This document shows, in pieces, positions 10,713-64,000 of a stretch of 64,000 bases of DNA. The position numbers and the translations under genes were made by a program. Every line of letters begins with the position of its first letter. Within the stretch, counting starts at the first letter, position 1. This DNA is from Owenia fusiformis (lineage: Eukaryota; Annelida; Polychaeta; Sabellida; Oweniidae), in NCBI GenBank assembly GCA_903813345.2, contig CAIIXF020000011.1, positions 25,722,166 to 25,786,165 of the forward strand, written 5' to 3'. The notes below the pieces were generated by a model, which searched no databases, had not been told where the DNA came from, and saw nothing but the letters and a program-made list of their open reading frames with translations.

Positions 10713-12686
10713 TTGTATGAACTGAGTGATTATAAGATTTTGACTTTTACTTTAGCAAATAGACTACATAGTGTTTTACCTAAACTTGTTCGTAAAGACC
10801 AATCCTCATACATAAAAGGCAGATATATAGGAAATAATGCCAGACTTTTGTTAGATCTAATTGATTACTCTAATTTTGAAAATATAGATGCATTGCTTTT
10901 GTGTTTAGATTATAAAAAGGCATTTGATAGTATTAATTGGGCATTCATGTTCAAGGTACTAGAAACACTGAACTTTGGCAAAAATTTTATAAAATGGATA
11001 AAAGCTCTTTATAATGATCCAAAACTTAAAATCAAAAACAATGGGCATATTTCTAATGAAGTAAAAATAAAAAGGTATACGTCAGGGATGTCCAGCATCT
11101 GCTTTGATTTTCATAATATGTACTGAAATAATGGCAAATAAGCTGAGAAGAAATGACAAAATTAAAGGAACTTAAATTGACAAAAAAGAAATAAAAGTAA
11201 TTCAACATGCAGATGATACCACTCTCACATTGTCAACTAAAGAATCTATTCACGAAGCACTTAAAGAAATAAATAATTTTTCTGAAATATTTGGACTTAA
11301 TTTAAATATGGACAAAACTGAGGTAATATGGTTAGGTAACTTAAAAGGTAATGGACATAAATATGAAAATATTCATTTTGGAGTAGAACCTGTAAAATGT
11401 CTGGGAATATATATTGGAAATGACAAAACTTTGTGCAAAGAAAAAAAACTGGGACAACAAGATTAACAATTTTGAAAAACTTTTTGAATCATGGAAAAAA
11501 AGAAAACTGACCCTCTTTGGCAAAGCACATGTTATTAACACTCTTGGAATTTCAAAATTAGTGTACAATTTAAGTATTCTAGATGTACCCGATGATATTG
11601 TTAAAAGAATCGATAAAATTATTTTCGGTTTTCTATGGAAAAAGGATTGGGTAAAACGAAATACTTTAATTGGAAATATACTTGATGGGGGGATTAATCT
11701 GGTAGACATTCAATGTAAAATTGATGCTTTAAAAGCTGCATGGGCACCTCGTATAAAAACAACAAACACATCGGTTAAAATAATTCCAGAATTTATCATA
11801 AATAAGCTTGGTTTTACAATAAACGATTTTTACAAAACAAATTTTGACGAAAATGTTAAGATTTTAGATCACTATAAGTTCTACAAACATGTCTTTTGTG
11901 CATACAATAGATGTAAGGAAATAGAGAAAAATAAACATCCTGGAACAGAAGTTTATGGCTAAACAAACGGTTTTTATGTAGGAAAGAAACTTTATACATG
12001 ACAAATTGGATAAATGCAGGTTTTATTTATGTCAAGGACTTTTTTGACGAGAGAAATAATCTCAATGATGAAAATACTGTTTTGGTAAGATTAAAGAATA
12101 AGCAAAATTGGATGACTGAATATTTGAAAATAAGACTTGCTTTGCACAATATTAAATATGAGAGTAAACAAAGTATGAAATATACTAACAAAAGGCATTC
12201 AAACTCTTTCCTATTTAGAAATGACAAATATGAAAACCTTAAGAAATTAAGTTCAAAGTTCTTTTATAAAATCCTATTGAAAGATACATTTATTAGACCA
12301 AAGGTGGAAGCAGATTGGACAAAATCGTTCAATATTCAGAACGATAGAATCACTTTTAGAAATATATATAAAAACAAGATAAAAGATATTGAATGCCAAA
12401 GGTTATCAGAATTTAACTTTAAACTATTACACAATTTCTTAGCCTGTGGAAAACTGGTAAATAAGTGGAATATGAATGTACCAACAGAATGTAGTGAATA
12501 TAATGTTGGTGTTGTTTTGATAGAGTTTATATAATGCTGTGTAAATCCTATTTTACTATTGTAAAAATTCTAATCCAGGATATAATGTATATAACCGTTT
12601 TGCATAGTTTTATTGATTCAAGTATTGTTTTGTGTTAATTACTTTGCGTTTATGTTTTTGAATAAATAATTTTACAAGAAAAAACT
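10713..12686 (+). mobile_element. 5'-truncated LINE, L1/Tx1-type reverse transcriptase
   Basis: The sequence begins inside the reverse transcriptase domain (LSDYKILTFTLANRLHSVLP; then KDQSSYIKGRYIGNN; LCLDYKKAFDSINW with the first catalytic Asp). It continues through the second catalytic block near 11200, where the usual YADD box reads HADD (VIQHADDTTLTL), and through GLNLNMDKTEVIWLG and KCLGIYIG. The thumb region follows, then a C-terminal part ending around LSEFNFKLLHNFLACGK near 12460. These blocks match the L1/Tx1-like LINEs common in marine invertebrates. A tail with AATAAA at about 12661 followed by an A-rich end near 12680 marks the 3' terminus. Several frame changes and stops break the frame (for example after 11126, 11460 and 11962), and the endonuclease and 5' part are missing. 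It is a dead-on-arrival or decayed copy. Confidence 0.9.
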
Positions 12687-43324: not shown

Positions 43325-46300
43325 TTAATTATTTTGAATCATAAATGAAGCTTTAGTTGAGTTGATTACTAAACATTTGTTAATATGTTCTCTAATCAAA
43401 TAATTTAATAAGAGCATGTAGTACATATACATTGCACCATAAACCACATTATGTTTAAGGAAAATGAAGCATGAAAGGGCAATAAGTGCCAATAAAATGT
43501 CGACGTTCATGATGCTAATATTAACAAGTATCAAGGCCATGATGTCTTTTGATAGATCGTAAGGCATAAATTGTCCCCAGCACACAAACTTTAAATTACT
43601 CTTTCTTGTTTTCGGCCTCCTTCTCCCATTGAGACGTGCGTTAGATACTGGAAAAATGGATAATGCAAATCATGACATGTACACGTGTATATAAAACTAC
43701 ATCAGCGGTGTTTTCATTTCAGAAGGGCATTAATGACATGGATGAATCATTCCTCCTATAAACATGTATGAAGCAATGCATAGGGAATTGCGAAAATAAT
43801 GACTTCCAATTTTACCCAATGGACTAAAGAAATATCTAATAATCATCCCTAAGTCTGCATAACTGCTTCATGCGGGGAACATAGGGTTATGTATATCTAC
43901 CTGGTTTTGAGTTTGTGCTTGCTTTCATTGCAGTCTTCTGGTTCATCTTTGGCAATCCATTCTGAGCTTTGCTATGAGGCGTAGCAGCAGAACCACTTGT
44001 GGAGGGAACTGTACCTTAAATTGCAAATTCTTCTTTACTAAAATCTACAGTTCCTTCGCTATACTACCAGGTGTAAAAGGGTAGGAGGTCCTATCAAATC
44101 ATGGTCCTACTCTCCATTGATTTATATGGTGACCTAATTACAACTCTTTCCCTTATTATCTTATACACAATCAGGGCCAGTAGGGGCTGTTAGGAAAGGG
44201 GACCATAATCCCTGGGGGACCATAATTTCTTTCACACCGGTATGTTTTGGGGGAGGGATACGACCATATGTTGATAAAAAATGCATGATAGGTTTTTTCT
44301 TGATATTCTTAGCAATCTGTTATTTCCCATGCGTCTGGCCAATGCAGACATAAATCGGACAGTGAGCAAATATGGTTATGTCAATATGAATGTCATAACC
44401 ACCATCAATATAACTTGTATTGGTGTAGTATTTTTTATGATAATGTTATTCCACGCATATATAGGTACGTGTGATATCAGAACCCAGTTAAAAACGCATG
44501 GTACTATCAAATAATGGGTACCGACTTAGTTAATAGCCAAATTAGGTAGGGACCGACGAAACTATCAATACTGTATCACTGGTCAGAATCAAGATGCGGT
44601 TAAGGCCGTTACCTTCTCATCTAAGCTGGCGGACGAAAAATATCGATTTCGATATTTTTTGGTTTTCATCGAATAAAACTACTTTATAATTGACGTAATG
44701 CTTTGTTATTTGTACTTGATAAGCCTAATATATCATGGAACATGGAGTATGACCATTTGTTCTTAAATCATACGTGGGCGCCATAATTCAACTATTTGTT
44801 ATATACACCGCTTAAGGGAAGGTAACTGAGATTTTGATTTTGCAAAATGCACTTCCAGTTACCTTCCCTTAAGCGAGGTAACATATAGTTGAATTATGGC
44901 GTCCACGTTTGATTTAAGAATAAATGGCCATACTCCAAAGTTTCCATGATTTCTTAGATTTATCAAGGTCAAATATCAAAGCATTACGTCAATTATAAAG
45001 TAGTTTAATTCGCTGAAAACAAAAAATATCGAAATCGACATTCACCGTCCGCCATCTTAGATGAGAAGGTAACGGCCGTTACCGCATCTTGATACTGACT
45101 AGTGAATATCAAGCTCAGATAAATTTTACAAATCATTAGTTTTATAAGTACCGTAAATATTTTCCTTACCACGTCTCCTCCTCTGATGATTACCCGATTC
45201 TCCTTCTTCCTGAGGTTTCTTGGTCGATTGCTGGTGCAATTTACTCTTTTTTCTCAATGGCTCTGCAACAAAATCAATTAAATATCTTACTGAGTAATTT
45301 ATCAACAAGCAAATAGAAACAGGAATTAGAAGTGGTCTATTTCTGTAACCAATATGAAGTTTAACTGAAATTCAAGCCAAGTATGAGCTTATTATGTTAC
45401 AAACATGGGTAACTGGCCATACACAATATCATTATCATATTTCCCGTTCGCTACAACAGTAAAGTTTTACCAATTTATTTTGTAGGCCAGTTTGACATAT
45501 ATTCTCTTCTGGGACAACAAACTTTTAAGGTGGCACCTTACCATCTATGTTGTCGGATTGGGGTACTGCATTTTTTCTCTTCTCTATATTTTTAGTCTTA
45601 TCTTTTGTATTCTGTTTGGCTTTACTGCAGGCACTTTTCTTACCAACCAGGATCTGTAATTTAAAAGCGTAGAACTTAATATGTGAATTACGTTAAACCA
45701 CTGGCACATTCTCAAACAAGACTATCTTACCTAAGTTTTTGCCAAATTATTCAACATAACTTATAAATACAGGACGTGGGGACCCGGGGTAATCTTTAAA
45801 TCTTGTTTACTACTTTCATTTAGATTCAAAATAACAATTGTGTAATGTTGAGTTCACGGTATACAAAGACAGTTGTCTTTGAAATAATTGCCTCACACAA
45901 TAGGGTTATCTTATATCTCTTAACCATTAATCTAATGCATTACAAAATCCAGCTGGTTACATCTTTTATTACAAGATATGATGATTATGATAAATGTATG
46001 TTTACTATTCGTGTACAGTTTTTATTGGTAGCAAAATGACCACTTTCTGTCAAATTTTGAAAATATCGAAACAGAGATATAATTTGAACACTTTTGAATC
46101 GCCCCTCGTATAACAGGTTTACAAGCAGTTGTTTGTAACAAGCAATTACTAGACTAGAGAAGGGGTTTAAAAGACTTGGTAAATCATAACATTCCACATT
46201 TTAGGTGGTCACATCTCACAATTAGGTAATGTCACATCACCATTTGACGTCCCCTTTTTGTCAGATTTCACATTTTTGGTCATTTAAAGATATAGAGATA

Positions 46301-49300
46301 TATTTGAAACAGTTGAGAACAATACCTCTGGTTCTTGTATTTCTTCATTCAGCATATTTAGGATTGCATCTGGAATGGCTGTTGGATTGCTGCTTTTTTT
46401 CGGCGACCTTTGAGTTGGTATCTGATTTAAGATCCAGGGCATTTTGTGATCATTTTGGTATTTCCTTAATTTCTCCTGAGATGACAGATACGATTTAATT
46501 CTGTTGACAAAGGAAAGCCACCACTTATATTGAGTTTCGTAGTACTGGTCACTATATAAAGGTCGTAAAAATCTTTGATTTCTCTCAATATTTGTTACTG
46601 CAAGTTTTTCAAAATTTGGTTCAACAGTATTAGGTGAGCCAGTAGGAATTGTCACAAGGAGCGAATTTGCTGGTTTCCAGGGTTGAGTGTTTAAGCCCTT
46701 ATAATATGTTCTAACGCCGTCATTGGATCTCACATATTTATAATGTAAAGGTTTAGTATGATGGGATATTGAATCAAGATGAGGTGTAATCCATGATTTA
46801 AAGTCAAAGATATGTTGTATGTAAATTGGATTTGGAAGTAGTTTTAAGAAATCATCAAACGTTTCTGCCTCATTTGTTCTGAGCGTTTCCGCAATGTTGT
46901 GAAAACAACAGTCAATGTCTTCATGTGTATGTCCCACAGGCAAAAATGACAGGTGAACCTGCAAAAAATCCATAACTACTATTCATTTGCTAAATTTGCT
47001 TACTGAAATGTTTATGCATGCTAATTAGGTTAATAATTCCTATAATATTATATATATATATAGATTCAGATTTGAAGAAACTAGTTGCAACGAAATTAAG
47101 TCATCTTGTGTTTTTATTTAAATTTTATTATATAACTCCAATAACTCAACATAACTTCAATAAACTGCCGTGTCCTCTATACCCCGTAAGCATTGTCCTC
47201 CTAGGTTTGTTTGAAATCTACACCAGTGTCATAGAGCTTGTAACCAGAGACATATATGTCTCTGTTGTAACTGACCAAACTCTTAAGAAAAGATACATAA
47301 ACAAATGGACAGACACTAATATTTGTTGTTTGTAGAATTAGTTTAAGAAAAGTATCAAAAGATCTAATGTCATACCAACCTCGGCAAATATATTCCTTTG
47401 TACTAGTAGTTCACACAAACCGAGCATATATTTATTTTTGTTTTCGCGCCAACAGTTGTCTGCCTGTAAATGTAGAACAGTCAATATGTTATGATGTATT
47501 CCCCATTCAAATGTTTGCGTGAGACCCCCAACGCGGGGCATGATGGGGATTTTGACAGAATAACAATTGGGCTGTCAAATTCCCAACATTGGGGGACAAC
47601 ATGTTCAGTCAATTTCACCACCAAATTAAATACTTTTAATTCCTACACTGCCCATTGTTTGGTAAAATCCTCTCCTCTGGGTGAAAATTACTTGACAAAT
47701 TCCCCATTCTACCCGCGCGGGGATCTCATGCGAACATTTGAATGGTGCATTAAACTCCATCCTGAGTGTGGCCCTGAAGTGAAATGGTGACAATCATTGG
47801 ATGACAAATACTTGAGCATTACTCTTACCAACACTAGCCTCTCTACCATAGTTTGTATCAGTATCCCAATAGTTATAAAATACTGAGTCAACCTGATGCG
47901 AGAAAAATCTCTCTGATAGAAAATACTGTATTAGTACCAGCAAATATTTCAAAAAGCAAGTCCAATATCCAATATAAGAACCCCTATTCTTACTATCGAA
48001 AATAGGATTCTTGAAATACTATCTAACATGAATCGCTTTGTTGAGACTCCATCAACTTGACTCTCTTACGAAAAAATAGGATTCTACTGACTCAACGTGA
48101 GGACATACATCATTGACCAATTGATTTAGCATCGGGATACCATCATATATGTCACAATGTAAAGTCAATGGCAGCCTTGCTGAAATTCTCTTTTTCTCAG
48201 AAGAACTCAGTTCTATCGAATCTCAACAAGTAGATTCATATTGGATAGTATTGATATAATCCATTTTCGAAAGTAAGAATAGGGGTTCTTAAACAGGACA
48301 TTAAAGCCTAATATAACTTTTGATATAATATATACGTTTTGAAATCTTTGTTAAGTACTATATGGATACTCAGTGAGGACACCAAATAAACTTATAAGCA
48401 AAGGCAAACATACCTGAAGGTATAGAACACGTGGTAGTCTTCTCTTCTGAAATATATAATACCGTGATCGATTTAGTTGCAAAGTTTAGTCATTTCTCCA
48501 CGTTTTCATGCTATTTTGGTCACCTTATCTGCAATTTTAATGCTATATATATCACCGAAGCCACATTTTAGTGACACTTTTACACATCTTAAGTAAAATG
48601 AAGAGAACGCTGTAGCATACCTGTGCGTTACTGCAGTATAATAATGCCCTCAAAAGGATGTTTATGGATAAATTAGAATCGTGCGGATATTCACAAGTGT
48701 CAAGGTAAGTTGAGAACGCTCTTTGGCCATGTGAAATAACTCCAGTGATGTGGGTTTTCAACAGGTCAGCTTGAGACACTGACTTTGATTTTGGTCCAAT
48801 GTGATGGGGAAGTGATGTTTTGCCTGCAAATATAACAGAAATGTCTCATTAGAGTTGTTGCAGTAATGTACTTGATCATAGCATTTCAATGTACATATTT
48901 TATTAGGTGTAGCCTTTGTTTGTATTGCCCATGTTTTGTGAACTTGACGCTTTTTGCAGTTGAACCTTTGCTTTTCTTTCGGTTTTTATGAATTTAGTTT
49001 ATTTTAGGTGAGGAATTTTACTATTTGGGGTAACATTGGAAATGTTGTGTTGTGCTCAAGTGTTACAAATGTCCCCCACGGTGTGTTATTCTAAATTTAC
49101 TCTCCCATAATAAAAACAAGGTTAATTTCTACAATACCTTGATCCATGCCATCAATTATTAGGCTAAGGAAGTCATCTGGACATTGCTTTGCTTTTTCTC
49201 GCTTAGCATAGTAATACTGACGTTCCATCCTGCAATTTCAGTGAAACATACGGAGACATGCTAATATGTTAATTAGGCCCAAATGTCATACATACAGTCA

Positions 49301-51220
49301 ATTACAAAACGTTCAAATTAACCAAATACGGTAAGATTGACCATCTAACAGTTAGTAGGACTCATTGATAAGAATTTTTACTAACTCTGATTGGGCTATA
49401 TATCACGGGGTGCCAACTATGACAATAAACGACTGTTAATTTGAATTTTAGACCTACCCGATGTTCGAAAATCAAGAATTGTGAGTCTCATACTGCACCG
49501 ATTTTCTTCAAAGTTTTATACAAAGCAAAACAAACATGCCTTTCTGTTGGTACATTATTTTGTTATACAGAATCTCTCGTTTTAGCGGCGTCTTGGTCCC
49601 AAGCTGTGAGAAGCGCTTCTCTCAGCCGGGGATCAAAATGTCGCAAAAACGAGAGACTATGTACAATAAGGCAATGTATCGACAGAAAGGCATTTTTTTG
49701 CTTTGTATAAAACAAATTTGAAGAAAATCGGTGTGAGACTCACAATCCTTGATTCTCGAACATCGGGTAGGCTAAAAATTCAAATTAACGGTCGGAGTTG
49801 GCACCGCGTGTATTTGCTAAAAAGAATTCTTCTCTATTGTACTTACATTTAGAACAAAAAATTCTCTTCATTTTGAATGGCATGAGCAATTTATCAAATA
49901 TTGTCGTGAATCGCCACAATATTCAGTCTTCCATATCGTCAATGACAACGGAAATTGAATTTCAATAAATCTAAAGAGACAGCGGGCCATGGTTATCAAT
50001 TTTTCCTTTGTCATGTGTCATACTATGATCTGTAAAATCAATGATTTTACCTCGATGTTATAAACAAGTTATATGTACGATTAGTAAACATACGCTTTGA
50101 TTTATTATTGTACAACATAAATTTAATGTAGGTACTTTATTAAGCCTGCAGTTAACGAAAATCAAATCGAATGGAGCTTTGCAGATATTGACTTAATTAA
50201 TCCAAAATACATGAACTATTTTAGAATTGTATACATGTCTCAACGATAACTATTTGCGAGAACCTACATTTGCCGTTTGTTATGCTGTCTAAGGAGCGAT
50301 TTAATTTCTCGTCTGGCATCTGGTTGTAGAGTTCGTTCCAGTCGACGATTCAGGGTCACACATTTGTCACATTTGGTGAATGAGTTGGTCTGCAAAAGAA
50401 TTGCTACCATGTAATTTAAGATGTATTTCCATGTCACCATCGAGTGTCTTAAAAATTCTTACAAATACAGTTTACATTTACTTCAAACGTTTATACTCAA
50501 ATATTATAGACATATCACAACTCCCAACATAATCTCTGTTATCAGGTGGTGATTGTCATGTAAATGTCTTAAATTGATGTATTAAAAGTGTTTTCATATT
50601 TTCACTGCTTACCTGCCTAATCTTTAAATGAGGAAACATTTCAGCCCACACATCCATGAACCTTGATTTCCTTAGAGGTATGTTAGACTCTGCCAGTTTT
50701 TCTTGCTGGTAAATGTCATAAATAGCTTCTTTTCTAGTTTTATATGGCAGAAAAAAATCATCTGAATCTGGCATTCTATCTGAATGGAATGATGCATACT
50801 CCTCAATCCATAACACAGCTTCTGTGTAGCGAGGTGTATGCCCCCGACCATTTTTATGTCCCGCAGCTACTGCTCCAACGTGATACATCTTCACAGATTC
50901 GTAATAAAAGTTTTTATCTATTCCATAAAATGTCATGAACGCCTTCTGACAAACATTATTGCCATCTTGTACCGAGAAAAGAAAGTTTGATCTTTTCATC
51001 TTTTTAGATTGTCCAATTTTTTCCAACATCCATGCCCGTCTATCTTCTGAATTCTTCGACCAAAACAAAATTCTATAATTGGCGACTTCATCTAATGATA
51101 TAAACTGTCCGCAGTCTCTGCCACAACATTTTGGCATATACTTTACTTTCAGAAGAGCTGATTTAGTGGTAAGTTTTCGGAGCATTTTTGACTGCTTTAC
51201 CCTCCTCTTTTTTCGATTAC
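43325..51220 (-). CDS. Spliced gene for a DUF7869-type, DDE-like protein (5' incomplete)
   Basis: Eleven minus-strand exons join in consistent phase with AG/GT borders: 51220-50613, 50389-50268, 49229-49138, 48823-48621, 48446-48414, 47463-47380, 46958-46326, 45653-45542, 45262-45170, 44008-43901 and 43647-43325 (stop). The product is about 800 residues. The N-part has Cys clusters (KCCGRDCGQF; later FTKCDKCVTLNRRL). The middle holds FLSLIIDGMDQ, LYLQADNCWRENKNKYML and SFLPVGHTHEDIDCCF. The last is typical of DUF7869 proteins. The acidic residues in these three blocks could be a DDE triad of an RNase H fold, so a transposase origin is an inference. The tail is Lys/Arg-rich, suggesting nuclear location. 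The first exon, ending in phase 1, was not found; the last exon is the least certain. Confidence 0.78.
44577..45104. mobile_element. Foldback element in an intron of the DUF7869 gene
   Basis: Two inverted arms of about 240 bases meet at a short centre: CACTGGTCAGAATCAAGATG at the left, and CATCTTGATACTGACTAGTG at the right. At the middle CGCTTAAGGGAAGGTAACTG faces AGTTACCTTCCCTTAAGCG around 25-30 bases of loop. It lies between the exons ending at 45170 and starting at 44008. It carries no coding sequence. The CACTG/CACTA tips recall CACTA-type elements, but no target duplication is clear. Confidence 0.8.
46326..46958 (-). CDS. Largest DUF7869 exon
   Basis: This 211-codon exon begins after TTTTTTGCAG and ends GAG|GTATTG. 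It opens VHLSFLPVGHTHEDIDCCFH and continues AETLRTNEAETFDDFLKLLP, with a later W-rich stretch (QYYETQYKWWLSF) and a basic end (TQRSPKKSS). Reading past the donor gives a stop within about 15 codons, whereas splicing to the next exon gives EPEILVGKKSACSK, the kind of continuation seen in this family. That supports the donor choice. Confidence 0.8.
47975..48291. mobile_element. 317-bp foldback element in an intron
   Basis: TAAGAACCCCTATTCTTACT at the left faces AGTAAGAATAGGGGTTCTTA at the right, with arms of about 110-120 bases (for instance AACATGAATCG..TTGTTGAGA and its inverse). It lies between the DUF7869-gene exons at 48414-48446 and 47380-47463. A single arm of the same family occurs at 30052-30178. 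Confidence 0.78.
49404..49810. mobile_element. 407-bp foldback element in an intron
   Basis: CACGGGGTGCCAACTATGAC at the left faces GTTGGCACCGCGTG at the right, with arms of about 190 bases (AGAATTGTGAGTCTCATAC.. and GTGTGAGACTCACAATCCTT; AACAAACATGCCTTTCTGT and CGACAGAAAGGCATTT). TAT lies outside both ends (49401-49403 and 49811-49813), consistent with a 3-base target duplication. It sits in the intron between the exons 50268-50389 and 49138-49229. The open frame 49441-49710 lies across the arms and is not a gene. Confidence 0.82.
50613..51220 (-). CDS. N-terminal cysteine-containing exon of the DUF7869 gene
   Basis: The exon follows TTGTGTTTTAG and ends CGGCAG|GTAAGC. The ATG seen 19 bases upstream lies in the intron side of the acceptor, so it is not the real start. 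The 202 codons are basic at first (RKKRRVKQSKMLRKL), then give KCCGRDCGQFISLDEVANYR, FLFSVQDGNNVCQKAFMTFY, and RYTEAVLWIEEYASFHSD. The order of blocks fits the N-terminal half of DUF7869 proteins as I remember them. Confidence 0.78.
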
Positions 51221-51239
51221 CTAAAACACAAGACAACAA

Positions 51240-52510
51240 CCATTTAATATTTAATATTAAAAGTATTCAATTACCCATAGTTATTATGTTAAATCAGCCA
51301 CTGATAGGACTATACGTGCTTACAATTATGATCCTGGCAATGCCAAAGCCACTTAAACGATAACCCCAAATAAAATTGCACAATTTAGCGATAATTGAGT
51401 ACTCATTCCAGTAAACATTAGTCCTTAATAAGAACAAATGACATGAGTACTGATTTATTGCATGTTTTAGTACTAAATGAGTACTCATATGATGATTGAT
51501 AAAATAGTACTAATTAAATAGATTTTTCAGTGCTCATATCATTAATTAATTGTATATTAGCGCTTATGAGCGCGCTTTTGCCAGAGTGCTAATTTAGTAC
51601 TAATTTTGTACTCATCAAAATAATAGAGTAATCCGCATATCTCCCTGTGATAACCGTTATAGTCAATGACGCTTTTTATTTATCGCCATGTCAATTGCAT
51701 CTTCGAATTCCAAGTGGTTATAACACATGGAGTTGGAGCAACTAAAACCTTCAGAATTAAGATGTGTCAATTACCCAAATGCCAGTAGGTAGTTACCAGT
51801 TTCACCACCAGGTGGCTGATTCGGGTCAATTAACATGGCAGGTATATAAGAAAGTTCCCTTGAACTTGAATATTATCAATTTAAGTGGCTCAATTTTCAT
51901 ATAACCCTTATGTGCCTGATACTTATACTAATGAAAATATGTCCAGTAAAGCAAAATATTATCTGTCCACTAAAAGAAAAGATATTTCATTTTTTGTGAT
52001 TTTATAGCATGGGGTCTATGGGTAATCTCCCCGAGCTAGAAGTCACATTTTCAAAGAAAATTAATTTTTCAAAGTTGATAAACACTTTTTAAAACCACAT
52101 TTCTAGATGTAATTTTACATGTAGATTTCAAATATGATATTTCTTTGACTGAATTTTGAATTTTTAATGACGTAAATCAAGATTATTTCTACTCGCATCT
52201 GGGTTATTGATTGTTGTGATAAGTTTTTCCATACAAAAAGTTAATTCTTTGTTAGAGTTATTGAATGGAATGGATGGGAACACTCATGCTTTCTTTTTTA
52301 GTTGATCCTACACAAAATAGTCAATTACATCATGGAGTCTATGGTAATATCGGGTGTTTATAGACTACAGTAGTTTAAAGAGGCGTTTGCAAAAAGCTAT
52401 GACTTCGACAATTTATTTACACTCTACTTTGTAATATTATTGCTTACTAATAGGTTACAGGTTTTACTGTACAACCAGGTGGTTACATTTTGACATGCTG
52501 TTGCCTCGTT
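51240..52510. other. Intronic or intergenic, no exon recognised
   Basis: The missing 5' exon of the minus-strand gene should lie here or further right, but I could not identify one. Bases 51390-51600 contain many GAGTACTCA/AGTACTAA words. The 16-base sequence TACAGGTTTTACTGTA at 52456-52471 is the exact inverse of 40347-40362. Confidence 0.35.
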
Positions 52511-58986: not shown

Positions 58987-61900
58987 ATTCAATATGATTT
59001 GGATTGTGTTACTTGCGGTGATACCTATGGCATGGGGTCAAAGGTATATATTAAGTTTTTTTTAGATCGAGGGAACCGTATCTAGCATTATCCCTCTTTT
59101 AAATAAACGTTTTGATATCGAAGGTGCCGTATCTAGCATTTATATACCCAATATGTAACACTAATCCTGATTGGTCAATACCTAGTCACGTGTTCCGAAA
59201 TAGATTTACTATTTCCATCGGAAAGTTATATTCCCTCAAATGTGACGTCAGCGGGAATATACATTTGAACTATTGCCCGCTGACGTCACGATTGCAACTT
59301 CTATTACCCTTGGAAACGTCTGCGCATCATCACTGCGCAGACGAAAAACAGAAAAATGGATGATGAGCACAAACACAAATCAACTCCGTTCACCATGACA
59401 GACGTGCGTGAACGATACAGTATAAGCAACGTGTATAAAGTTCCCTAAGCTCAATACGTCTGTGTAATTTCAAGTGTTATGATAATCTATTCCGCATGTT
59501 AAACGCGATTGAATTTGTCAAGTGAGAGTCTCAGTCGCAAAAATTTCTGTTGAGCATCTGATGACGTCACAGCTTATAATGCTAACAATGAACCCGGGAA
59601 GGGGGCTTTCTAAGCCTTTTTGGCCTTCGCAGAGGAAACGGGACAAGAGTCAGCATAGGGTATATAATAAAACAAATAGTGACTGCCTAATTTCGAGCAA
59701 TAGTGTAAATGATTTCCCCTTGGGAATATCCTCTACAATGTACTATTCCCTCAGCCTGCGGCTTCGGGAATAGTTCATTGTAGAGGATATTCCCTCGGGG
59801 AAATAATTTACACTATTGCCCTCAATGGCAGTCACTATTTGTATATTATTACCACCTTGCCGGGCCTGTTCTAGGGGTAATAGTACTAGTTTAGAAGGCA
59901 TTTATTTAGGCTAAGGAATAAAGAACCATGTATCATTCTATATTGGAAATATAAAAGCATGAGTGTATGTAATAATGCACGAAGGCGAAGCCTTCAGAAT
60001 GGGTTGGTACATCCACAAATATTTCCAATATAGAACTGGAATGATAGTTATGATACATGATTCTTTATTACAAAATTGTTGTCTTTGAAGAAATCAATTT
60101 TTATATCTTTTTGGACAAGTTTATTATCTATAAATACTGAATAGGGGTGTAATGTTACAATTGATATCCGTTTGAAAAATATTGAGAAGGTTTTGTTTGT
60201 CAGAATATTAATTTGATGTAATGTAAAACAATATGAAAACTTAGTTGGAAAATCATTGCATTGACTAAAATGAACACAAAGATGATATGCTGTCACCCCT
60301 TTTTAAAGAATAGTACTGCTCAGTCCGTGCAGTCCGAAAAATACTGGGCTCGGCCTCGCTCAGTATTTATTTCTCGAATAGGTATTCTGCCATATCCAGC
60401 TTCTGATCATCCAATATTTGGATAATATTGCCCTTCGAAATGACGTTATTGTACTACTATACTATCCCTCTTTTTAATAAACGTTTTTATATCGAAGGTG
60501 TCGTATTTAGCATTGTCCTTCTTTTTAACATATTAGGCTCTCGCGCCACTGATTTTTTATCAATAATTTAGATCTTTGTTACATGCATTCTAACCCGTAT
60601 TTCAATTGTTTGGTCTATGTGTAAATAAACGACTGTAGTTATAATGCAATAAATGCAAACAATGTGTAAATGCGTCTCGTTTGTTTCAGCTGCCAGTGCA
60701 GTATCTTCCAAGTTCGAAGCAGAGATGCCAACGGTATCCCTGTCGATAAATCGTCCGAACTATGGAGACTTACTGAGACTCCTGCTGGCGGATGTGCCGC
60801 GGCAGAAGTTATCAATTGCGAAAATAATTGCATTCAAACCTTCCGAAACTGGAAGGCCAACAACACAATGTATTCTATCGCCCCTGGTGTAAGTTTAGAG
60901 CTTCTTGCGTATTATCAAATGATTTGTATCTCATACTCCCTTTATATTCTAACATATTATTTTTACGACCTCAATCATGACTTATGAATGATCAGAATTC
61001 ACAAGCGGCAAATTGGCAGGATGATACATATTTTCGGTCGACCGCAATTCAAAAATTGAGGGACTTGTGACATTTATATACACATAATACTAATAGTATT
61101 CGATAGCAGCCTAGCCATGATATAAAAATGCTAAATATAGTCTATATATACCCAGACCTTGGTGACTCTGAAAGATGAATAGGTATCGCTCTTCTTAAAA
61201 TGAAATATTTGTCTGATATTTTACATAAACCCTACCCCGATCCTGAATCAAAAATAATCATCGTATAGTTCTTATTCACAGACAAATGGACGCGACTATT
61301 GCTCATATTTCTGTATATCCCTGACCCTGAATCAAAATAAAAAATAATCATCGAAGTTCTTATTCACAGACAAATGGACGTGACTATGACTCATATTTCT
61401 GTATGTCCCCGACCCTGAATCAAATGAATCATTATAGTTCTTATTCGTCACAGACAAATGGACTTGACTATGGCTCATATTTCTATATGTCCCCGACCCT
61501 GAATCAAAATAAAAAATAATCATCGTATAGTTCTTATTCACAGACAGATGGGCCTGACTATGGCTCATATTTTTGTATGTCCCCAACCCTGAATCAAATA
61601 ATCATTATTTAGTTCTTACTCACAGACAAATGGACGTGACTATGGCTCATATTTCTGTATGTCCCCGACCCTGAATCAAATGAATCATTATAGTTCTTAT
61701 TCGTCGCAGACAAATGGATGTGACTATGGCTCATATTTCTATATGTCCCCGACCCTGAATCAAAATAAAAAATAATCATCGTATAGTTCTTATTCACAGA
61801 CAAATGGACGTGACTATGGCTCATATTTCTGTATGTCCCCGACCCTGAATCAAATGAATCATTATAGTTCTTATTCGTCGCAGACAAATGGATGTGACTA

Positions 61901-62452
61901 TGGCTCATATTTATATATGTCCCCGACCCTGAATCAAAATAAAAAATAATCATCGTATAGTTCTTATTCACAGACAAATGGACGTGACTATGGCTCATAT
62001 TTCTGTATGTCCCCGACCCTGAATCAAATGAATCATTATAGTTCTTATTCGTCGCAGACAAATGGATGTGACTATGGCTCATATTTCTATATGTCCCCGA
62101 CCCTGAATCAAAATAAAAAATAATCATCGTATAGTTCTTATTCACAGACAAATGGACGTGACTATGGCTCATATTTCTGTATGTCTCCAACCCTGAATCA
62201 AATGAATCATTGTTTAGTTCTTATTCACAGACAAATGGACGTGACTATGGCTCATATTTCTGTATGTCCACCGGATCTGTCGTACCCCCTGGCTACCCGC
62301 TAGAGGCATTGCATCAGATCGTGTCCTGTTATGATTGGATCAGCTCAACTGAAGTGGATAACCGCCAGAACTTGTGTTGCAATGGTGACACTTGGAACTT
62401 CTGGGACTGTCCATATAACGAACCTACAACCGCTGCTCCATTTGACGTTTAA
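58987..62452 (+). CDS. Secreted cysteine-rich protein, three coding exons
   Basis: Coding exons are 58994-59043 (preceded by an acceptor-like TTTTTAG at 58986, so a 5' UTR exon probably lies upstream), 60690-60888 and 62231-62452 (stop TAA). Splice signals are CAAAG|GTATAT, TTTGTTTCAG|C, GGT|GTAAGT and TTATTCACAG|A, and the phases agree. The product is 156 residues. MIWIVLLAVIPMAWG is a signal peptide, followed by QSCQCSIFQVR. The mature part has ten cysteines (CQC, GGC, INCENNC, FC, SC, CC, DC), which suggests five disulfides. The end is FDV. I do not recognise the family. An ATTAAA lies about 100 bases past the stop. Intron 2 is occupied by duplicated copies of the last exon's start. Confidence 0.75.
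59661..59850. repeat. Long inverted repeat in intron 1
   Basis: ACAAATAGTGACTGCC (59672 on) faces GGCAGTCACTATTTGT (to 59842). Inside, CAATAGTGTAAATGATTTCC and GGAATATCCTCTACAATG pair with CATTGTAGAGGATATTCC and GGAAATAATTTACACTATTG. The stem is about 80 bases with few mismatches, around a centre TATTCCCTCAGCCTGCGGCT. This may be a foldback MITE. The short open frame 59522-59773 runs into it and is not supported. Confidence 0.8.
59916..60069. repeat. Second inverted repeat in intron 1
   Basis: GAATAAAGAACCATGTATCA TTCTATATTGGAAATAT at 59916-59952 faces ATATTTCCAATATAGAACTG GAATGATAGTTATGATACAT GATTCTTTA at 60019-60069, with a short insertion in the right arm. The loop contains GGCGAAGCC. It is probably a MITE remnant. 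Confidence 0.65.
61234..62230 (+). repeat. Tandem array of duplicated 3' splice sites
   Basis: Eleven copies of TTCTTATTC(A/GTCG)CAG followed by ACAAATGGACGTGACTATGG CTCATATTTCTGTATGTCC precede the true last exon of the secreted-protein gene. The copies' exon-like parts start at 61282, 61370, 61454, 61544, 61626, 61710, 61800, 61884, 61974, 62058 and 62148, and the real exon starts at 62231. Spacing alternates 84 and 90 bases, so the later part is a 174-base dimer array. The 39 exon-like bases equal the first 13 codons of the real exon. After them each copy diverges to CCGACCCTGAATCAAA. In the exon frame the 90-base type reaches TAA soon after (..PTLNQNKK), while the 84-base type stays open into the next copy. 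The long minus-strand open frames here are by-products of the array. Confidence 0.9.
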
Positions 62453-62459
62453 CATGACA

Positions 62460-64000
62460 GATGATGAAAAATTGAAATTTATTATTTGTTAAATTTTGAC
62501 AATGAAATATAAGTATTTGGTATTTGAACTTATTTTCAATTTGAAATTGGAATTAAAAGTGATTTTCGAAGAAAAATATAGCCTTACCGTTGTTGCAACT
62601 CCTAACGTTTTCGCTTTCTGTGATATTCGAAGCTTTTCTCGTTGATTGTATTATCGATTGTTATGAATATATATATGATAGTCCGAAAATCCCATGGGTT
62701 GAAAGGGGTTGCAAGGTTATATATCGAATTTTGTATATGTGTAATGTGGATCAAGATATCAGATTTTATCAAATATCTCTTCATAAATTTTAGCTATTCT
62801 GCAAAATGATTTTAAATTCTTTTTAAAATTCTTCTTTAATTTTTTGAAACTTTTATTCAAAAACTCTTTTAAATCTCTAATATTTTAAAGAGTTTTTTCA
62901 TTTTTTCAAAAGTAGCCGTCACTAGCTAGTACCTTGTACCCGTCATTAATACCTAGCGGTCAACAGTATAAAGAAGCGGCCAACAGTGCCAAGCGGCGGT
63001 CAACAGTACCTATCGTTGACTTTTAATGAACCAATCAGAATTGAGTATTTCAGCGAATGCTTTATTTTGATTTTGTGGAGACACGGCTGCAGTACGGCAT
63101 TTGAAATGATGACGCACGGTCGCCTTAGGTCGACCCTATGGCGGCTGCTACTAAGGCAAACGCAAGGCAGCCATATGGGGGGCCGTCCCGGGGAGACTGT
63201 ACGTTGACGGTACGACGACCGCAAGGCTAGTCTGACCAAAGCCCTACGTCATGACTATTCATTATCATAGTTCTACGTCGATGGTATGTAGTTTTCACGG
63301 CGACCTTATGGTCCGTAAAAACTGCAGGGATACACTGATACTCCGTAAGGTGACCACAGATTCTCTACATCGTTTCTTACGGTTGCCGTAGAGAAAATGT
63401 GACTGGGTCATTTCATTTCGGCTGCAGTACGGCATTTGAAGTCAGTTGGACGGCACATTGCCTTAACCCATCAGCTTTATGACGTGCACTTCCGCGTGGG
63501 ACTATATCTTTACAACGGGAATTTCAAGTTTTTGTCAGTGTAGACATAAAAAGTTGCGGTCCTCTTACTCGCGCAGTTTTTAATATTTTCATTTGAAACT
63601 TGCAGGAACGGTGCTTTGAATCTAGCTCTCTACTCTTTGAAAACGTCATGTAGAATCATAACAGTTGAACTATTTATTTTTTGTCGTGAAAATATTATTT
63701 TTTTAGTTTATTTTTATTTTACAACTTTTTGGGAAAAAATGTAACAAATTTTTATTTCTAGTCATATTTATCCGATATTTTGTCATCATGAAATTCGAGA
63801 TTCCTTTTAATGATGGTGCAAATTTCATAACAATTGATGAATTTTTATTATCAGTGTTATGTTTTCCAAAAACGATGTACCACTGTGCATGTTTCTTTAA
63901 TTGACGGCACATTTGCCTTTAATTGGGCGAACGTACAGTTCCCGACGCAATAAGCTTTATTTGATTTAATACACTCAAAAATAAAGTTTGCTATCAAATC
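62460..64000. other. 3' flank, dispersed repeats, no gene recognised
   Basis: Bases 62940-63060 contain CGGTCAACAGTA words and CCAATCAGAATTGAGTATTT, related (inverted) to the complex at 26380-27530. A direct repeat of CGGCTGCAGTACGGCATTTG A lies at about 63083 and 63420, 336 bases apart, around a GC-rich stretch with CGACC/GGTCG words, which may be a diverged element. From 63500 to the end I see nothing. Confidence 0.45.

Follow-up and report, generated by a model that had tools for sequence, protein, structure and literature searches.

We analysed a window of 64,000 nucleotides from the annelid Owenia fusiformis (assembly GCA_903813345.2, contig CAIIXF020000011.1, positions 25,722,166 to 25,786,165 of the forward strand; positions below are counted from the first base of the window). 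Toward its 3' end lies a gene for a cysteine-rich protein whose second intron carries its own acceptor in 11 tandem copies, each extending 39 bases into exon 3 sequence; a twelfth copy is the real acceptor. The three coding exons, when joined (58994-59043, 60690-60888 and 62231-62452), equal the public O. fusiformis protein P0001, letter for letter. The spliced product thereby bears out the donor at 60888/60889 (phase 0) and the real acceptor at 62231 that a preliminary description of this DNA had assigned. The gene and its array are laid out as follows.

58994 to 59043, plus strand: coding part of exon 1, with the start codon and a signal-peptide-like N-terminus (MIWIVLLAVIPMAWGQ), as judged by eye
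59044 to 60689, plus strand: intron 1, 1646 bases, AG/GTATAT to TTTCAG
60690 to 60888, plus strand: exon 2, 199 bases, ending in phase 0 at GGT/GTAAGT
60889 to 62230, plus strand: intron 2, 1342 bases, with 346 ahead of the array and then the array
61235 to 62269, plus strand: boundary-spanning minisatellite made of 12 units (82-90 bases each), with unit 12 continuing into the real exon 3
61235 to 61582, plus strand: units 1-4 at the 5' end, which diverge more, by 3.4-4.8% from the nearest other unit (gaps omitted)
61583 to 61664, plus strand: unit 5, closest to the real acceptor unit 12 (2.4% different)
61665 to 62186, plus strand: units 6-11, in which B (84 bases) and A (90 bases) alternate as nearly unchanged copies of a 174-base dimer
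62187 to 62269, plus strand: unit 12, the real acceptor (62230/62231) and the first 39 bases of exon 3
62231 to 62452, plus strand: coding part of exon 3 to the stop, departing from the repeat at +40 (ACCGGATCTG)
62552 to 62557, plus strand: ATTAAA, about 100 bases past the stop, by its motif a candidate poly(A) signal of the gene

Anatomy of the array

The first exonic bases of the twelve units lie at 61282, 61370, 61454, 61544, 61626, 61710, 61800, 61884, 61974, 62058, 62148 and 62231, and the acceptor spacings are, in order, 88, 84, 90, 82, 84, 90, 84, 90, 84, 90 and 83 bases. Tandem Repeats Finder (TRF) describes the array with a period of 84 in 12.0 copies or a period of 174 in 6.0 copies (score 1324/1347). 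A search with a 39-mer across the acceptor, at no more than three mismatches, returned 11 matches in the window compared with 0 in 100 shuffles, the copy at 61544 falling below this threshold. Taken with the positions, these results confirm the 11 intronic copies of the acceptor and first 13 codons that had been described. It had also been stated that nearly all spacings are multiples of three and that the regular copies therefore keep a constant phase. The first statement is true of 8 of the 11 spacings but of only two of the five distinct lengths (82, 83 and 88 are not), and many spacings are divisible by three because two unit lengths were amplified together as the 174-base dimer. Phase is held across the regular 84- and 90-base steps and lost at 88, 82 and 83.

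Each unit consists of 43-51 intronic and 39 exonic bases, with the boundary between them fixed by P0001. The unit acceptor reads TTCTTATTCACAG or TTCTTATTCGTC[AG]CAG, save one substitution in unit 5. CAG/ACA is intact in 12 of 12 acceptors, and CAG hence in all 11 intronic copies. Four B-type copies differ from the real acceptor at 4-5 positions between -14 and -1, with a pyrimidine count that is equal in all copies. The retention of CAG is not in itself surprising, since 61 of the 80 gap-free columns of the array are invariant; at that fraction, the chance of three such columns is about 0.44.

The center of the array is homogenised. Units 7 and 9 are identical, as are units 6 and 10, and units 8 and 11 lie 1.2 and 1.1% from their nearest relatives (gaps omitted), such that units 6-11 as a group differ by 0-1.2% from the nearest relative compared with the 3.4-4.8% of units 1-4. 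In addition, CCAACC and TTTAGTTC are found in units 5 and 12 only, and these shared variants suggest that exchange reached the functional boundary.

Protein product and choice of acceptor

P0001 has 156 residues, with a hydrophobic start resembling a signal peptide by eye, followed by ten cysteines. Protein-database searches return the same two Owenia proteins only (2 of 17 candidates, and 2 of 537 in a profile search): P0001 itself and its paralogue P0002, the sole relative found, in which all ten cysteines are present. BLAST aligns P0002 at 74% identity over 84% of the query (67% across the whole alignment), and beyond +39 of exon 3 we count 41 of 60 residues in the alignment as identical. 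Neither protein has a Pfam match, the best chain for P0001 in the PDB reaches only E = 0.55, and its AlphaFold model has a mean predicted local distance difference test score (pLDDT) of 41; P0001 stays an orphan protein. A search for the DNA of P0002 gave no match at E <= 0.01 in 200 kb of flanking DNA and, within the window, matched the studied gene only. Ends aside, the alignment of P0001 with P0002 contains a single length difference, one residue located exactly at the exon 2/exon 3 junction of P0001, which would fit a three-base shift of a splice site.

Judged by sequence, the intronic copies could serve as acceptors. All 11 would truncate the protein, to 104 (five copies), 105 (one), 132 (four) or 134 residues (one) compared with 156, and the truncation would cost 60 residues and four of the ten conserved cysteines. 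None of the 11 rejoins exon 3 in frame, because B copies are followed by spacers with a stop and the final spacing is 83 bases; copy 11 reads into exon 3 out of frame. The reading of the 84-base spacer as a linker of the SSYSSQTNG type is confirmed. For the 90-base spacer, the tail PTLNQNKK followed by a stop is as previously read. Copies 1 and 4, which precede the 88- and 82-base spacings, end in LTLNQNKK and PTLNQIIII. On the plus strand AATAAA occurs at 61336 (to 61341), 61508, 61764, 61938 and 62112, each time starting 9 bases ahead of an in-frame TAA, which amounts to 5 in the 1.0-kb array compared with 1.8 per kb on the plus strand of the window.

As a separate candidate, antisense coding was considered and rejected. 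The minus strand of the array contains a 203-residue open frame (61609-62220) with Pfam matches to Pua-like (5e-8), HigB-like (4e-5) and CSL4_N (1.4e-4), and no stretch of it passes alone. We read these matches as probable sums of weak periodic matches, and the frame stays open because the unit lengths are divisible by three.

The direct evidence on acceptor use is the annotated protein, a model that corresponds to the last acceptor, 62231. The protein search, whose length range admitted truncated products, returned none among its two matches (17 candidates): one is P0001, which corresponds to splicing at 62231, and the other is the paralogue P0002. The cluster of P0001 has one member. The Owenia annotation is described as combining RNA sequencing, splice junctions and ab initio prediction, for a total of 26,966 genes and 31,903 transcripts (PMC9977687). 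In a reported in vitro study of a duplicated globin acceptor, the proximal copy was followed by 14, 55 or 205 exonic bases, and the distal site only was used, very inefficiently; concurrent occupancy of two 3' splice sites is described there as inhibiting or slowing splicing (PMC5389562). Given that the distal-only globin result resembles the Owenia gene, in which the copies carry 39 exonic bases and the guanine-plus-cytosine (GC) content is 0.49 in exon 3 beyond +39 and 0.36 in the array, we would expect use of 62231, perhaps with slower splicing.

Origin of the array and competing explanations

We propose that the array is a “mirage” minisatellite, a type of boundary-spanning repeat described in amphioxus, and consider it probable that it is tolerated by-product DNA and not a built-in switch. 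To account for its origin, we infer a tandem duplication that linked the first part of exon 3 (after ...TGTCC) with the intron at CCCCGATCCTG by way of a short imperfect match. Exon 3 exits the repeat at +40 as TCC-ACCGGATCTG, most units continue as TCC-CCGACCCTG, and intron sequence passes into unit 1 with CCCCGATCCTG; the short imperfect match between exon and intron at the breakpoint (CCACCGGATCTG / CCCCGATCCTG) is as would be expected for such an event. The founding duplication would have given a unit composed of the 3' end of the intron, the acceptor and 39 exonic bases. The array may then have been enlarged by unequal exchange or slippage, lately through copying of the 174-base A-B dimer, and some exchange may have taken in the functional boundary unit. 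Because the acceptor motif is intact in every unit, one acceptor would always be fused to exon 3 at any copy number, and the array would thus be tolerated. It could most likely grow or shrink without breaking the gene, as a passive structure. The real site most likely dominates because it alone is followed by true, GC-richer exon past base 39, the copies returning to intron-like sequence at that point.

The preliminary description had offered a minisatellite that captured an exon edge as one possibility, and this possibility is supported by the 84/90-base unit, the 174-base dimer, the homogenised center, the divergent 5' units and an array-rich region. In 264 kb (the window and 100 kb on each side), TRF finds 45 arrays at a period of at least 25 and a score of at least 100, seven of which, including the studied array, have at least five copies. 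Another minisatellite in this region, of 12.7 copies of 45 bases, lies about 14 kb downstream of the window. The unit does not look like a dispersed repeat or transposon fragment: all six matches that a 241-base probe gave across the 498-Mb assembly fall in the array, where the counts are lower bounds and very common words were skipped.

We looked for signs of selection and of RNA structure. Among gap-free columns, 9 of 11 in the acceptor are invariant compared with 52 of 69 elsewhere, a difference that is not significant (Fisher p = 0.49). The exon copies show 13 distinct codon changes, four of them synonymous, where 23% (three) would be expected without constraint (p = 0.51). The 997 bases of the array with the acceptor show no excess folding (z = +1.0; 16 of 20 shuffles were as good or better).

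Several observations weigh against a passive array with a dominant last site. On the intron side, from -14 to -1, six of the 11 copies match the real site in full, and one further copy has a single mismatch over the same stretch. By the classical proximity rule (summarised in PMC9225289), upstream acceptors would be favored, and ab initio prediction may account for part of the gene model. The 18 acceptor columns have the smallest mean pairwise difference (0.038; the spacer has 0.072 and the exon part 0.069), which leans in the direction expected from selection, with few independent events behind it. The selection tests are themselves weak, since the copies are young, homogenised and not independent; their results leave function unsupported without excluding it. 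Finally, the analysis covers a single assembly: one individual, one haplotype and one species.

The six copies with a full match would also fit a splicing brake set by copy number, in which the 11 acceptors bind U2AF and the U2 small nuclear ribonucleoprotein (snRNP) alongside the real one and slow the removal of intron 2, with no stable decoy isoforms. We regard such a brake as unlikely. It could draw on the in vitro inhibition under concurrent occupancy (PMC5389562) and on reports that an intronic variable number tandem repeat in human ABCA7 can affect splicing (PMC5954066) and that the C. elegans minisatellite CeRep25B is enriched close to regions of alternative splicing (PMC4039745). However, conservation in the acceptor columns does not significantly exceed that of the other columns, the in vitro precedent consists of human globin substrates with two sites only, and amphioxus mirages are reported as not disturbing splicing (PMC3087553, PMC3902484). 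We likewise see only a small chance that a brake evolved naturally and that minisatellite mutation quickly and reversibly tunes the output of a secreted protein. Another idea, put forward in the preliminary description, is a decoy array in which regulated intronic acceptors yield truncated secreted proteins with tails of the PTLNQNKK type. CAG and the phase-0 reading are intact in the copies, products of 104-134 residues are possible from 11 of 11, and the tails or linkers of four of the 11 copies are common to others, since the dimer repeats them. Nevertheless, the protein search and the one-member P0001 cluster contain no truncated product, four of the ten cysteines conserved in the paralogue lie past the truncation, the changes in the exon copies look neutral, and the shared phase is broken at three spacings. 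With all 11 copies truncating and the selection tests, weak as they are, not significant, isoform tuning is not supported and we hold it to be quite improbable.

Two further explanations appear very improbable to us. A copy followed by a 90-base spacer offers an acceptor, 21 codons, a stop and an AATAAA just ahead of it, and could thus form an alternative last exon with intronic polyadenylation; the five spacers with AATAAA and their density relative to the window are in its favor. Yet these five motifs amount to approximately one event, a single A-rich stretch amplified with the array, against a high background, and the placement of AATAAA before the stop is best read as chance. The other explanation is an assembly artefact, in which the array is unreal or its copy number wrong, and there is a precedent in one amphioxus mirage that was apparently misassembled in a draft genome (PMC3087553). 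Against this, the units of the Owenia array differ by substitutions and indels, and the Owenia assembly is described as built with PacBio reads (N50 25.75 to 30.75 kb) and Illumina polishing (PMC9977687). Many reads of such length would cross a 1.0-kb array, if, as we presume, it belongs to that published assembly.

Comparison with known boundary repeats and genomic setting

Mirages are described in the amphioxus globin genes BflGb6 and BflGb9 (PMC3087553) and in troponin C and PGBD5 (PMC3902484), and an Adh3 mirage of amphioxus (Canestro 2002) is cited in PMC3087553. The Owenia array likewise consists of tandem minisatellite-like repeats with a boundary-spanning unit and kept splice dinucleotides. 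As in BflGb6, the 3' end of an intron and the start of the following exon have undergone a minisatellite-like tandem duplication, and as in the amphioxus mirages described, many copies keep the splice signal; the inner copies appear homogenised, as reported there. Regular splicing is reported as intact in the amphioxus genes (PMC3087553, PMC3902484). There are also differences: one host is an annelid and the other a cephalochordate, Owenia has 11 extra copies whereas BflGb6 is reported with six and three units in two haplotypes, and the Owenia unit of 82-90 bases, with a higher-order dimer of 174, contrasts with 150-160 bases in BflGb6 (PMC3087553). Furthermore, the boundary unit seems involved in exchange in Owenia, while concerted evolution in amphioxus is described as excluding boundary units. 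In the literature searched, whose coverage leaves out most subscription journals, we found no report of an annelid mirage. We therefore read the Owenia array as a further mirage, in a phylum without a report in that literature.

Looser analogues are described in human genes. In IFI6 (6-16), a tandem repeat at an exon edge also repeats a splice signal, but there the repeated signals are donors, downstream units are described as used, giving three mRNAs (Turri 1995, as described in PMC4526556), whereas the repeated signals in Owenia are acceptors of putative use. In human segmental duplications, minisatellite expansion at exon-intron boundaries is likewise reported, with 27 intron modifications; those repeats are reported to form novel introns, mostly with RNA support (PMC2812944), while the Owenia repeats lie inside one intron beside the real acceptor. 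The duplicated 3' splice site substrates share with Owenia tandem acceptors of which the proximal one carries a piece of true exon, but they are engineered human globin RNAs with two sites (PMC5389562, after Reed and Maniatis 1986), in contrast to a natural gene with twelve.

The Owenia array extends boundary-spanning mirages from amphioxus to an annelid and suggests that mirages may stem from abundant minisatellites and not from cephalochordate biology. It also constitutes a natural test of acceptor choice, with twelve sites that are much alike in spacer, pyrimidine tract, AG and 39 exonic bases, so the determinant of a choice of the last site would lie largely beyond +39 or in position. If there is a brake after all, selected or not, the gene would repeat the duplicated-acceptor competition experiment in natural form, with twelve sites. 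For annotation there is a caution: in junction reads, copies 5, 7 and 9 are indistinguishable from the real acceptor before exon base 40 and copy 11 before base 39.

In intron 1 of the gene, TRF reports no tandem array. Two stretches of this intron, 59060-59140 and 60460-60530, are similar by eye (ATAAACGTTTT.ATATCGAAGGTG.CGTAT.TAGCATT) and are possibly the ends of a small mobile element. Elsewhere in the window, an open frame at 10713-11123 matches RVT_1 (Pfam, 3.4e-11) and resembles a long interspersed nuclear element (LINE), with an apparent continuation, by eye, in frames at 11396-12531 that have no Pfam match. On the minus strand, there is a long open frame without a Pfam match at 50556-51266, and another at 46284-46982 contains DUF7869 (5.4e-23) and may come from a transposon-related gene.

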